Shown piece by piece: positions 3,426-7,576 of a DNA stretch of 10,548 nt. Made by a program: the position numbers and the translations under genes. The notes beneath the pieces were generated by a model. It had not been told where the DNA came from. It did not search any database and saw only the letters and a list, made by a program, of their open reading frames with translations. Position 1 is the first letter of the stretch, and each line of letters starts with the position of its first letter. This DNA is from Methylococcaceae bacterium. GTDB lineage: Bacteria > Pseudomonadota > Gammaproteobacteria > Methylococcales > Methylomonadaceae. The DNA is taken from assembly GCA_013140465.1 (NCBI GenBank), contig JABFST010000127.1, forward strand, positions 1-10,548. The letters run 5' to 3'.

Positions 3426-4718
3426 ATGAGCCAACACGATTATAAAGTCGCCGATATAGCCTTGGCAGACTGGGGCCGTAAAGAAATTAACATAGCCGAA
3501 ACCGAAATGCCGGGCTTAATGGCCTTGCGTGCAGAATTTGGTGCCGAGCAACCGTTAAAAGGCGCACGCATTGCTGGCTGTTTGCACATGACCATCCAAA
3601 CTGCCGTGTTAATCGAAACCTTAACGGCTTTGGGCGCAGAAATCCGCTGGTCTTCCTGCAATATTTTCTCCACCCAAGACCACGCAGCGGCAGCTATTGC
3701 GGCGGCGGGCATCCCGGTATTTGCTTGGAAAGGCGAAACCGAAGCCGAAGCCGATTGGTGTATTGAACAAACCATCGTCGGCCCTAACGGCTGGCGGCCT
3801 AACATGATATTGGATGACGGCGGCGACCTCACCAATATGATGCACGACAAGTTCCCCGAACTGATGGCAGATGTTAAAGGCTTGTCCGAAGAAACCACCA
3901 CAGGCGTGTTGCGTTTGTATGAACGCGTAGCTAAAGGCACCTTAAAAGTACCCGCATTCAACGTCAATGATTCGGTCACCAAATCCAAATTCGACAACCT
4001 GTATGGTTGCCGCGAGTCTTTAGTCGATGGCATCAAACGCGCCACTGACGTGATGATAGCCGGCAAAATCGCCGTCGTTTGTGGTTATGGTGACGTGGGC
4101 AAAGGCTGCGCGCAATCCTTGCGTGGCTTAGGTGCTACGGTTTGGATCACCGAAATTGACCCTATCTGCGCACTGCAAGCGGCAATGGAAGGCTACCGCG
4201 TGGTCACGATGGAAGAAGCTGCCCCTATTGCCAATATCTTTGTCACGGCAACAGGCAACTACCACATTATCCGCCATGAGCACTTGCTGGCGATGCGTGA
4301 CCAAGCCATCGTCTGCAATATCGGCCATTTTGATTCTGAAATTGAAATTTCCTCGTTGCGCCAATACACTTGGGAAAACATCAAACCCCAAGTTGACCAC
4401 GTCATATTCCCTGACGGCAAACGCCTGATTATCTTGGCGGAAGGCCGTTTGGTAAACTTGGGCTGTGCGACCGGCCATCCTAGCTTTGTGATGTCCAACT
4501 CGTTCTGCAACCAAGTGTTGGCGCAATTGGAATTGTGGAAAAACGCCGCCAATTACGACAACAACGTTTATATCCTGCCTAAAATACTGGATGAAAAAGT
4601 TGCCCGTTCCCATTTGGCGCAAATTGGTGTCAACCTGACCGTACTGACCGCAGAACAGGCCAAATACATCAACGTACCTGTTGAAGGGCCTTATAAAGCC
4701 GATCATTACCGTTATTAG
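3426..4718 (+). CDS. ahcY: Adenosylhomocysteinase (S-adenosylhomocysteine hydrolase)
   Basis: AhcY hydrolyses S-adenosylhomocysteine reversibly to homocysteine and adenosine with tightly bound NAD+, relieving product inhibition of methyltransferases. It has 430 residues, the length of the compact form without the roughly 40-residue insertion seen in some bacterial homologues. Seen: the substrate-domain motif [10 protein letters not shown] (D130-D131 onward), a Rossmann NAD-binding motif [18 protein letters not shown] starting at G220, and the conserved C-terminus [10 protein letters not shown], whose Lys424 and Tyr428 reach the NAD of a neighbouring subunit in known structures. The Shine-Dalgarno AGGA (3416-3419) sits 6 nt before ATG. 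It lies directly behind metK. The 23-nt gap is too short to hold a SAH riboswitch, which is known upstream of ahcY in some proteobacteria. Confidence 0.98.
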
Positions 4719-4720
4719 CA

Positions 4721-4767
4721 GTTAATAGGGGAGTATGAAAACCCATCTCTTGCTCCCCTAGCTTAAC
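4721..4767 (+). terminator. Long hairpin behind ahcY (possible terminator without T-tract)
   Basis: TAGGGGAG (4726-4733) pairs perfectly with CTCCCCTA (4753-4760) around a 19-nt loop. Outside it GTTAA (4721-4725) pairs with TTAAC (4763-4767) across a two-base GC bulge. The structure begins two bases after the ahcY stop. No run of T follows, so it could stabilise the 3' end, act with Rho, or mark the junction where the next cassette begins. Confidence 0.4.
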
Positions 4768-4801
4768 AACCGCTCATAGGGTTGAACTTTCTGAGGTTTG
4801 T

Positions 4802-5674
4802 GTGAAACATTACTTGCCAACTATCTACAGTAATCAGGAAGGCTTTACTCAACTGGCACGCTTAAAAAGCATCATTATCCATTCAACAGATAATGAAATA
4901 GTTTTAAATTTTTCTAGGTGTGGCTTTTTCGATGCCAATATGGCTGCCTCTTTAAAAGCGGTATTAGCAATTGCAGCTTCCAAATCGAAAAAAGTGTCCA
5001 TCAATGAATTACGACCGGGGATAGAACGCGTCCTCAGAAAAAATCACTTTTTAACAGAATATGGGTTTAACCCACTACCCGACACCTACCAAACCACTTT
5101 ACCTTATCGTTGTTTTCAAACATCTGATAGCCGTGACTTTAATCAGTATCTAAAAATACATTTGTCGGGTAAAAATATCCCTAAAATGAGCCAAAAGCTG
5201 AATAAGAAGTTTCGGGAAAGTATTTTTGAGATTTTTGAAAACTGTGCGACGCATTCCCATTCAACACAGGGTATTTTTGTCTGTGGGCAGTATTATCCAC
5301 AAAAATGCCGTCTTGATTTGACTGTTTCAGACACAGGTGTTGGCATTCGTACAAATGTGCGCCGTATTCTCGATAACAAAACCTCTTCAGTGGATGCTAT
5401 TTGCTGGGCATTAATAGAAGGCAACACTACGAGAACAGGCAATCAGCCTGGGGGATTTGGATTAGCATTGCTCCAAAATTTTATCGAACACAATAAAGGC
5501 AAAATCCAAATTGTTTCCCGACATGGCTATTACGAATTCAGCAATGGACATAATAAATTTGAAAAATTGGAAGCAGATTTTCCAGGAACCACCATCAACT
5601 TAGAAATTAACACTAACGATGACAACAATTATTGTTTAAGCTCTGAAACAACCTCTTTGGAGGACTTATTTTGA
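4802..5674 (+). CDS. STAS-like plus GHKL (HATPase_c) ATP-binding protein
   Basis: A two-domain cytosolic protein of 290 residues. Residues about 1-90 look like a STAS-type fold; the stretch IVLNFSRCGFFDANMAASL (33-51) resembles the conserved strand-loop-helix of anti-sigma-factor antagonists. Residues about 130-275 are a GHKL ATPase: N box ESIFEIFENCATHS (E139, E143, N147), G1 box DTGVGI (177-182) and G2 box GGFGLALL (217-224). There is no membrane segment and no histidine-kinase dimerisation helix with a phospho-acceptor His, so it is closer to SpoIIAB/RsbW-like switch ATPases than to sensor kinases. The serine phosphorylated in SpoIIAA-type STAS domains appears to be Asn46. The start is GTG with Shine-Dalgarno GAGGT (4793-4797). 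It is AT-richer than its neighbours. First gene of a three-gene cassette; biological role unknown. Confidence 0.8.
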   Translation: MKHYLPTIYSNQEGFTQLARLKSIIIHSTDNEIVLNFSRCGFFDANMAASLKAVLAIAASKSKKVSINELRPGIERVLRKNHFLTEYGFNPLPDTYQTTLPYRCFQTSDSRDFNQYLKIHLSGKNIPKMSQKLNKKFRESIFEIFENCATHSHSTQGIFVCGQYYPQKCRLDLTVSDTGVGIRTNVRRILDNKTSSVDAICWALIEGNTTRTGNQPGGFGLALLQNFIEHNKGKIQIVSRHGYYEFSNGHNKFEKLEADFPGTTINLEINTNDDNNYCLSSETTSLEDLF

Positions 5675-5693
5675 AATCACTAGAGAAGCAAAA

Positions 5694-6050
5694 ATGGACA
5701 ATATAAATACACTTCGGATTTTTGATATTGTTGGCGGCGGCTTGTGTGTATCCTCTGATGATGGACAAACAGTGCATGACAGAATTGCTCACTTATTGCG
5801 TGAAAATCAAAAAGTCGTTATTTCTTTTGAAGGTGTGGACACGTTGATCTCGGCATTTCTCAATGCGTCGATAGGCCAGCTTTATGGCGAATTTACTGAG
5901 GAACATATACGCGAATACCTTGCTGTCGATAACATTTTACAAGACGATAGGATGTTGTTGAAACGTGTTATTGATAATGCAAAAATTTATTTCAAAAACC
6001 GCAAATCCTTTGATGAAGCGTGGAGAATTGAGGTCAACGATGAAGAATAA
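5694..6050 (+). CDS. DUF4325-type STAS-like small protein
   Basis: A soluble protein of 118 residues without signal peptide or membrane segment. The core VVISFEGVDTLISAFLNASIGQLYG (41-65) has the strand-loop-helix pattern of the STAS-like family I know as DUF4325, whose members are often encoded beside GHKL ATPases. The remainder is helical and charged. STAS folds usually bind partner proteins, so it may be the partner of the ATPase encoded 19 nt upstream, of the PIN protein encoded downstream, or of both. This is inference. The start ATG is preceded by AGAGAAG (5682-5688). A stronger GGAGGA (5659-5664) lies in the end of the upstream gene but has no usable start behind it in this frame. The 3' end overlaps the next gene by 11 nt. 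Confidence 0.75.
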   Translation: MDNINTLRIFDIVGGGLCVSSDDGQTVHDRIAHLLRENQKVVISFEGVDTLISAFLNASIGQLYGEFTEEHIREYLAVDNILQDDRMLLKRVIDNAKIYFKNRKSFDEAWRIEVNDEE

Positions 6051-6597
6051 AGCATATAACCTCAGTAATTATACCTTTATCAGGGACGAGGTATTATTGA
6101 TAGATACAAATATTTGGTTATATCTTTTTCCTGCACCTTCTGGCCCCCCAAGTTACTTGACCAGAATTTACTCAGCTGCCTTTAAAAACCTACTCACCCG
6201 TAAAGCGACAATTGCTATTAACTCAATTATTCTCAGTGAATATCTGAACCGATATTGCCACATTGAATACGATGCATTGCACAAAAAAAAATACGCTACC
6301 TATAAAAAATTTCGCCAATCTATCGACTATTCTTCTATTGGTCAACGAGCAGCAGCTGATGCCAAAGAGATCTTAAAGCTTTGCATCAAAAAAACTGATG
6401 ATTTTACTATTGCGGATATGCCCCAAATACTTAACGGCTTTGAGTCAGGCAGCCTTGATTTTAATGACGCCATAATCGCTGACGCCTGCGCACGCCACGG
6501 CTGGAAATTGATTACACATGATGGTGATTTTACCGAGGGCGGCATAGCGATCATCACCAGCAATCAAAAACTACTCTCTAATTGTGCAACGACATAA
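6040..6597 (+). CDS. PIN-domain protein, putative ribonuclease
   Basis: A 185-residue PIN-domain protein. PIN domains are Mg2+/Mn2+-dependent RNases with a cluster of acidic residues. Candidates seen here are D22 in LLIDTNIWLYL, E67 in IILSEYLNRY, D143 in SLDFNDAIIADA, and D161/D163 in LITHDGDF, in the standard order for VapC-like nucleases. It is longer than a typical VapC (about 130), with an extra helical stretch around 75-135. The chosen ATG (6040) lies inside the last codons of the previous gene and has Shine-Dalgarno GAGGT (6030-6034). An upstream ATG in the same frame (5965) would add residues encoded by the previous gene and is unlikely. The overlap implies translational coupling. No antitoxin with a DNA-binding domain is adjacent, so a classical VapBC pair is not supported. 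The target RNA is unknown. Confidence 0.8.
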   Translation: MKNKAYNLSNYTFIRDEVLLIDTNIWLYLFPAPSGPPSYLTRIYSAAFKNLLTRKATIAINSIILSEYLNRYCHIEYDALHKKKYATYKKFRQSIDYSSIGQRAAADAKEILKLCIKKTDDFTIADMPQILNGFESGSLDFNDAIIADACARHGWKLITHDGDFTEGGIAIITSNQKLLSNCATT

Positions 6598-6739
6598 GCC
6601 ATGCGCACCTTGCGTCCAACACTTTATGGCATGCTTCAACACCTTACCTATACCAAAGTATCCAGCATCATTGATCGAATCGATTTTTGTGGATACCTAA
6701 TTGCTCAATGCCACGCGTCTACATAAACTGGGCTTATTT
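6598..6739 (+). promoter_or_regulatory. Leader region of metF with inverted repeat
   Basis: A 142-nt gap between the PIN gene and metF. It holds an inverted repeat GTATCCA (6658-6664) / TGGATAC (6690-6696), with a smaller ATCG-AAT-CGAT hairpin between the arms (6674-6684). A poor promoter-like pair may exist (TTGATC 6671-6676 followed by a TACCTA-like box near 6694), but it is weak. There is no terminator with a T-tract behind the PIN gene. A 41-codon reading frame (6601-6726) crosses the gap without a ribosome-binding site. The segment is best read as the metF leader/operator or the right junction of the inserted cassette. Confidence 0.3.
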
Positions 6740-7576
6740 ATGACTACACAATCACCCTTATTCAGCTTTGAATTTTACCCGCCCAAAACCGAAGAAGGTG
6801 CGGAAAATCTTCACTTAGTGCATAGCAAACTGGCGCAACTGAACCCCGATTTTTTTTCTGTCACGTTTGGTGCTGGCGGGTCTACCCGCGACAAAACCTT
6901 TGACACCGTGGTCGGCATCCAAGCTAAAGGCATTGCCGCCGCGCCGCATTTGTCCTGCGTCGCTTCAACTAAAGACAATATCCGGCAAATCCTTAAAGAC
7001 TACCAAGACCACGGCATCGCCCGCATTGTGGCGTTACGCGGCGACATTCCATCCGGCATGATGTCGGCGGGCGAATTCCGCTACGCCAATGAATTAGTGG
7101 ATTTTATCCGCCAAGAAACTGGGGATTATTTTCAGATTCATGTCGCGGCCTATCCTGAAGTCCACCCCCAAGCCAGCAATGCCAGCGAAGACTTTAAAAA
7201 CTTCAAGCGCAAAGTCGATGCTGGGGCCAATGCCGCGATTACCCAGTATTTTTATAATGCCGAAGCGTATTTTTATTTTCAGGATAATTGCGCAAAACAC
7301 GGCATCGACATCCCTATCGTGCCAGGGATTATGCCTATCACCCAATATGCGCAACTGTTCCGCTTTTCGGAAATGTGCGGCGCGGATATTCCCCGCTGGA
7401 TGCGTAAACGCCTAGAAAGCTTTGGTGATGACCGGGATTCGGTACAGGCTTTTGGCTTAGACTTGGTCAGCAAGCTTTGCCAACGCTTATTGGATAACGG
7501 TGCGCCTGGGCTGCATTTTTACACGATGAACCAATCTGCGCCCACTTTGGCTATCTTAGACAACATCAGCCATTGA
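6740..7576 (+). CDS. metF: 5,10-methylenetetrahydrofolate reductase MetF
   Basis: MetF reduces methylene-tetrahydrofolate to 5-methyl-tetrahydrofolate with FAD, giving the methyl group used to remake methionine from homocysteine. It has 278 residues and a TIM-barrel plan. Motifs: FSFEFYPPKTEEG near the N-terminus (E11, equivalent of E. coli Glu28), VTFGAGGSTRDKT, VALRGD (D102, equivalent of Asp120), VAAYPEVHP (135-143), KRKVDAGANAAITQYFYN (Q169, equivalent of Gln183), PGIMPI and a C-terminal LHFYTMNQS. The start ATG at 6740 is chosen because homology begins at once after it. A TTG at 6701 would add 13 unrelated residues. The Shine-Dalgarno is poor. It belongs functionally with metK and ahcY but is separated from them by the STAS/GHKL/PIN cassette. 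Confidence 0.97.
   Translation: MTTQSPLFSFEFYPPKTEEGAENLHLVHSKLAQLNPDFFSVTFGAGGSTRDKTFDTVVGIQAKGIAAAPHLSCVASTKDNIRQILKDYQDHGIARIVALRGDIPSGMMSAGEFRYANELVDFIRQETGDYFQIHVAAYPEVHPQASNASEDFKNFKRKVDAGANAAITQYFYNAEAYFYFQDNCAKHGIDIPIVPGIMPITQYAQLFRFSEMCGADIPRWMRKRLESFGDDRDSVQAFGLDLVSKLCQRLLDNGAPGLHFYTMNQSAPTLAILDNISH

Follow-up and report, generated by a model that had tools for sequence, protein, structure and literature searches.

The cassette of three genes at positions 4802-6597 of the window (the whole 10,548-bp stretch of Methylococcaceae DNA analyzed in this work) is a member of VapKSC, a kind of system that has already been described (Chambers et al., EMBO J, June 2026, PMC13373217). We consider it very likely that these genes constitute a horizontally gained VapKSC operon, i.e. 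a kinase-controlled toxin-antitoxin or abortive-infection module in which VapS is let go after phosphorylation by VapK, a function that we infer for the copy in question. The first-pass annotation, which had described three packed same-strand genes coding for a STAS and GHKL protein, a DUF4325 protein and a PIN protein, agrees with the list of open reading frames (ORFs) and with Pfam; its statement that the cassette is not a recognized, named defense system has been superseded by the name VapKSC (PMC13373217). A literature search, mainly of openly accessible papers, turned up the name in no other paper and revealed no earlier description.

Organization of the cassette

All three genes are located on the + strand and have intact frames. 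The ORFs as listed span 4802-5674 (290 aa), 5694-6050 (118 aa) and 5965-6597; the first two are 19 bp apart and the last two overlap. The listed PIN ORF is probably too long: because most of the aligned homologs begin at MKNKA-like residues, the start of vapC is probably the ATG at 6040 rather than position 5965. The features discussed below are the following:

4719..6739, no strand: the stretch between ahcY and metF that holds the cassette (ahcY ends at 4718, the ATG of metF is at 6740)
4802..5674, + strand: vapK, 290 aa, GTG start; N-terminal STAS-like domain (residues ~1-100) and GHKL ATPase/kinase domain (~110-275)
5228..5242, + strand: N-box of VapK, with the codons of E143 (5228-5230) and N147 (5240-5242)
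5694..6050, + strand: vapS, 118 aa, predicted STAS-like antitoxin (DUF4325), modeled with helices 83-101 and 103-115 at the C-terminus
5850..5852, + strand: TCG codon of VapS S53, the equivalent of the phosphoacceptor S48 in Escherichia VapS
6040..6597, + strand: vapC, predicted PIN-domain nuclease, 185 aa; 11 bp overlap with vapS
6103..6105, + strand: GAT codon of VapC D22, the equivalent of the catalytic D28 in Escherichia VapC

In Pfam, VapK matches HATPase_c over the cut-off (E 2.9e-7) and STAS_2 under it (E 7e-4), VapS matches DUF4325 (E 1.8e-14) and VapC matches PIN (E 3.5e-12). VapK also matches PHROG 3364 over residues 5-277 (E 2.6e-49). In PADLOC-DB 2.0.0 (2023) VapS and VapC have no match and VapK weakly matches parts of the profiles of other systems, so copies like the one in the window would stay unannotated with this database.

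Relationship to the published VapKSC system

The order of the genes is that of VapKSC: a STAS-GHKL kinase, a STAS protein with a short C-terminal region and a VapC-like PIN protein. VapS of the window matches "Escherichia VapS" (PDB 9Z7O_A) with E 1.7e-13, and its VapC matches "Escherichia VapC" (9Z7O_C) with E 3.2e-9 (phmmer), a value that marks it as distant from the VapC tested by experiment. Among the PDB entries, the STAS-family profile has a single strong match, chain A of 9Z7O (E 2e-27); next come two designed proteins (E 0.005 and 0.47) and then 9Z72 (E 0.84), which is CapS according to the data section of PMC13373217; for the profile of the PIN family, chain C of 9Z7O (E 9.9e-11) is the sole PDB match at E <= 0.001. 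S53 of the window VapS aligns with VapS S48 (position 66 of 9Z7O_A less a tag of 18 residues, the numbering depending on a tag length inferred from 134 vs 116 residues), and D22 of the window VapC aligns with D28, with no gaps before that residue. The window proteins also resemble those of Escherichia sp. E4736 in their domains, in the conserved S/T of VapS, in the catalytic residues of PIN and in the helical C-terminus of VapS, whereas the sequences are distant and VapC comprises 185 aa in the window vs 203 in chain C of 9Z7O.

Chambers et al. (PMC13373217) counted 289 vapKSC operons, spread "across diverse bacterial groups"; in 103 cases another immune gene lies no more than 10 kb away. The tested system comes from Escherichia sp. 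E4736. The crystal structure of the Escherichia VapS-VapC pair (9Z7O) is a 2:2 complex. Escherichia VapC is toxic, and D28A abolishes its toxicity; VapS alone acts as the antitoxin, and this action is lost upon deletion of the C-terminus or in the S48E variant, which no longer binds VapC (PMC13373217). The system confers a ~2-log protection against phage Bas42 that requires D28 of VapC, S48 of VapS and F54 of VapK (PMC13373217). In the model presented there, VapK is a trigger rather than a co-inhibitor, activated by ssDNA and phosphorylating VapS; even for Escherichia, the activation of VapK by ssDNA and its kinase activity are deduced (from CapK and from models made with AlphaFold), and so is the RNA target (PMC13373217).

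Conserved residues and predicted structures

Searches at E <= 0.001 yielded 272 PIN, 330 kinase and 257 STAS homologs, from which the best 120 of each, window protein included, were used. In VapC, the residues D22, E67, D140, D143, D161 and D163 are identical in 120/120 of the best homologs of 272, in line with the full set of acidic residues that had been read from the PIN sequence alone. In VapK, E143, N147, H151, D177, G179, G181, G217, G218, G220 and T263 are likewise identical in 120/120 (best 120 of 330), and E143 and N147 are kept also in every one of the 23 sequences of an alignment with more divergent members. Among the invariant residues are those of the N, G1 and G2 boxes of the GHKL nucleotide site, which is intact in VapK. 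Position 53 of VapS is S in 115 and T in 5 of the best 120 of 257 homologs, and S or T in 31/32 rows of a wider STAS set; the exception, an IMG/VR contig (L025), belongs to a kinase/STAS pair without a PIN gene. At the corresponding start of the helix, the STAS domain of VapK itself reads D-A-N, with A or G at position 45 and N at position 46 in 118 of the best 120, and thus seems to be devoid of a phosphoacceptor. F42 and F43 of VapK (F in 116/120 and 119/120 of the best 120 homologs, respectively) are candidates for the ssDNA-binding aromatic residue (F54 in Escherichia VapK, for which the paper gives the accession WP_135559716.1, and W68 in CapK).

The AlphaFold2 model of VapK (pLDDT 91, pTM 0.90) has chains of SpoIIAB among its Foldseek matches at probability 1.00, and a profile of the kinase family matches RsbS over profile positions 21-80 (whole-sequence E 0.0026). 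VapS exhibits the STAS fold and is placed beside RsbV, SpoIIAA and RsbS among the fold matches. In its monomer model, S53 opens the helix H53-59, and the C-terminal helices comprise residues 83-101 and 103-115, with pLDDT 56 for the last block of residues.

Linkage of the three genes across genomes

Apart from the window, 18 loci (L004-L012, L024, L031-L037 and L073) were found by profile searches of ORFs to have a VapK-like gene scoring >120 bits. The near-duplicates L008/L009 and L011/L012 bring the number of distinct cases nearer to 16. The named sources of these loci are the following:

L004: Elusimicrobia MAG or isolate
L005: Desulfovibrio MAG or isolate
L006, L008-L010: Chlorobiaceae/Pelodictyon MAGs or isolates
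L007: Candidatus Rifleibacterium MAG or isolate
L011, L012: two archaeal MAGs, a Methanosarcinaceae and a Euryarchaeota assembly
L024: IMG/VR contig
L035: unverified faecal phage clone
L036: Streptococcus phage Javan172
L037: Deinococcus gobiensis plasmid

A DUF4325 gene adjoins the VapK-like gene in 18/18 loci (at least 103.7 bits), and a PIN gene is next in order in 17/18 (at least 48.5 bits); in the remaining locus, L006, a PIN frame follows the STAS gene and is interrupted by the end of the contig. The conservation of the genes together, which the first-pass annotation had put forward as a check, was found in every one of the 18 loci whose VapK-like gene exceeds 120 bits (with the PIN frame of L006 cut short, as stated), and a complex among the partners, another of its checks, has been crystallized for the homologous VapS and VapC (9Z7O). 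Among the 119 PIN and 118 kinase proteins listed, 31 exact contig sizes are common to both sets, vs a mean of 1.3 upon jittering (maximum 6 in 2000 trials); in the same pairing of listed proteins, PIN and STAS share 30 sizes, kinase and STAS 24, and all three 11. The distance matrices are correlated for VapC and VapK (r 0.77, 31 pairs), VapS and VapK (0.79, 23) and VapS and VapC (0.86, 30), the observed r being reached in 0/5000 permutations. The pairing by size is indirect and shared host ancestry could add to the correlation of distances, yet these results agree with the loci. Judged from these comparisons of sequences, the three genes form one unit.

The linkage of the kinase and DUF4325 genes to PIN is not universal, as more distant VapK/VapS-like pairs without a PIN gene occur in phages. 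VapK-like and VapS-like genes with no PIN gene recognized are found in Streptococcus phages JX01 (L038) and Javan39 (L071), in the above-mentioned L025 and in Marinitoga phage MPV1 (L072), and five further records are near-identical to the JX01 and Javan39 pairs. The STAS protein of JX01, Javan39 and L025 comprises 99 aa and is short of the C-terminal helices, that of MPV1 comprises 123 aa, and the MPV1 pair lies near a serine integrase. The kinase frame of JX01 (L038:3545-4255) codes for 236 aa vs 298 aa in Javan39 (L071:2111-3007), and the JX01 copy looks disrupted. These pairs without PIN could be toxin-free sensors or decoys. Another phage kinase/STAS pair, by size and order, is possibly present in Francisella hispaniensis phage vB_FhiM_KIRK, for which a hypothetical gene of 293 aa, with a DUF4325 gene of 112 aa after it, is reported beside the CI repressor (PMC7924643). 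The PIN gene of the complete cassette in Javan172 (L036:9164-9694) is unannotated, the record having only a 120-bp hypothetical gene there.

Host locus and probable horizontal gain

To the left of the cassette lie a sigma-70 gene (by Pfam), a tRNA-Met gene and genes that we take from their sequence to be metK- and ahcY-like, and to the right metF (MTHFR, E 2.6e-94) and a gene for a DUF4010 protein (by Pfam). The Pfam analysis of the window genes tested revealed no clear defense family besides the cassette, whose neighbors are housekeeping genes, with no defense island as far as the window reaches. The GC content of 4802-6597 is 0.384, vs 0.480 on the left and 0.499 on the right. A sample of the same genus comprised 35 genomes (own included), 31 of them with a metF match, and returned 30 loci, one of which is the window. 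Of the 29 others, 27 are informative, and in all of these ahcY and metF are neighbors that lie 49-210 bp from each other without an intervening cassette; the two remaining loci (L058 and L068) show no ahcY. At E <= 1e-30, VapK was found in one of the 34 other genomes of the genus (G427, with a divergent VapKSC elsewhere, 36% identical in the kinase) and in 4/398 genomes of a sample of the phylum, own included; among 61 relatives it was found in two, again own included. Because of this sparse distribution, the low GC content and the empty site in relatives, we propose that the cassette probably reached the site between ahcY and metF by horizontal transfer.

An inverted repeat, AGGGGAG...CTCCCCT, is located directly after ahcY (4728-4760 of the window); it was not picked up by the scan of the window and is possibly the terminator of ahcY. 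Elsewhere in the host assembly (G000), contig C404 codes for a 345-aa protein (L001:1459-2496, - strand) with a DUF4325 end that was scored and, by eye, an HTH-like start and a GHKL-like middle, and contig C128 (L003:1013-1773, - strand) carries a gene for a solitary DUF4325 protein of 107 aa, immediately followed by one for a 144-aa protein whose N-terminus is hydrophobic and whose remaining part is charged.

Proposed mechanism and alternative explanations

In the mechanism that we propose, VapS (DUF4325) would in the resting state be bound to VapC (the PIN nuclease), which it would contact through its STAS face while its C-terminal helix lay close to the VapC active site. VapK (STAS and GHKL) would bind ssDNA that arises when phages replicate or when DNA is restricted or damaged and, in the ssDNA-bound form, would become an active Ser/Thr kinase; it would phosphorylate VapS at S53, VapS would let go of VapC, and the freed VapC would cut RNA and stop growth. 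The idea of the first-pass annotation that a GHKL kinase similar to SpoIIAB or RsbW and a STAS protein control a PIN toxin, as a stress or anti-phage switch, is supported by the experiments on the Escherichia homolog (PMC13373217). Its suggestion that the ATPase and the STAS protein together hold the PIN protein is borne out in the Escherichia homolog for the latter partner but not for the former, which in the model presented there releases the toxin (PMC13373217).

The folds of the GHKL Ser kinase and its STAS substrate are common to the window cassette and to the SpoIIAB/SpoIIAA and RsbW/RsbV pairs. However, the latter control sigma factors, their kinases are not known to have a STAS domain of their own, and no nuclease is known to be involved. 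With the VapBC type II toxin-antitoxin systems the cassette has in common the RNase toxin of the PIN family. VapB, a small antitoxin that binds DNA, is as a rule eliminated by proteolysis, whereas the predicted antitoxin of the window is a STAS protein under the control of a kinase. Identity with VapBC was rejected, as the gene upstream of vapC is of the DUF4325/STAS type and no other + strand ORF of at least 60 aa is listed between vapC and metF.

It is conceivable, but in our opinion rather unlikely, that the cassette is VapKSC by descent and yet serves its host chiefly in the response to DNA damage or stress, i.e. in growth arrest after genotoxic stress, and not in defense against phages. 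The proposed trigger, ssDNA, is a general signal of damage, and the window copy resides among housekeeping genes; however, the sparse distribution and the copies in phages, a plasmid and restriction operons suit defense better than a core stress response. Far less probable is transcriptional control of the neighbors (vapC, metF) by the kinase/STAS pair, with no protein-protein switch. Such a role is suggested by CapK/CapS, the closest pair studied by experiment, which regulates transcription of the CBASS/Bub operons (PMC13373217). Like the window pair, CapK/CapS combines a STAS-GHKL kinase with a STAS substrate, phosphorylated in CapS at the conserved serine, but CapK has an N-terminal HTH, CapS has a winged helix, and the output is transcription instead of a toxin. 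In the window, neither an HTH on VapK nor a winged helix on VapS was found by Pfam at E <= 1 or in the secondary structure of the models, on which grounds identity with CapKS was rejected as well; their 290 and 118 residues, as modeled, leave no room for such domains, and the C-terminal helices of VapS are placed where the tested VapS needs them for the inhibition of VapC. It is hardly credible, finally, that the three genes, decayed or clustered by chance, have no joint function. The three frames are intact, the motif residues are kept and the linkage extends across phyla; for the family, the invariant residues and the recurrence of the gene set in other phyla argue against chance.

Genomic context of other copies

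Several VapKSC copies are found in or near operons for DNA-cutting defense. In G427 (L033), hsdM, small genes, hsdS, vapK, vapS, vapC and hsdR follow each other on one strand, with hsdS and vapK overlapping by ATGA. In the Elusimicrobia locus L004, HmaA (1702 bits) overlaps vapK by ATGA, and vapC is followed by an AAA_15 gene, HmaB (1532) and HmaC (1112). A type ISP enzyme is encoded upstream of the cassette in L005; a SNF2 helicase, a type III methylase and a ResIII gene lie upstream in L032, with GmrSD beyond; a type I system in L007 is convergent with the cassette; and L073 (genome G662) carries genes for a Schlafen protein, a protein similar to AriAB of PARIS (E 2e-169) and a type III methylase. 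Restriction, Hma or PARIS neighbors are present at no fewer than 6/18 loci (L004, L005, L007, L032, L033 and L073), a count that comes from selected neighbors scanned in a non-random sample, with no background rate. A CHAT/NACHT/TPR protein is encoded ~1.6 kb away on the opposite strand in L011, and an NB-ARC protein, an HNH gene and a VapBC pair are found in the Deinococcus plasmid stretch (L037). The neighbor genes tested in L008, L010, L031 and L034 revealed no clear defense family. In Javan172 the cassette sits between an HTH/M78 gene pair and an integrase, and in L024 an integrase gene is near the cassette.

It is tempting, though on balance doubtful, to regard VapKSC as a portable, ssDNA-armed suicide cartridge that has repeatedly been built into DNA-cutting defense operons (between hsdS and hsdR of a type I system, within an Hma operon, and downstream of a type ISP and of a type III-like system) and that is also present in archaea and in prophage lysogeny regions, with some phages keeping the kinase-STAS half but not the toxin, possibly as a sensor or decoy antidote. 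If this were true, the products or failures of the restriction machine would fire VapC as a second layer. In the main text of PMC13373217, "archae" is present twice (as far as shown, in a single reference) and "prophage" a single time, where a different system is meant, whereas "phage-encoded" is absent. The copies that lie within type I restriction and Hma operons, the archaeal copies and the phage copies by integrases may go beyond what is in print, and should be regarded as leads rather than results.

An unannotated cassette from an environmental genome is now tied to a system for which a crystal structure and phage data exist. The copies borne by restriction systems, Hma operons and phages make it testable that DNA-cutting defenses may be physically wired to a toxin released by a kinase.
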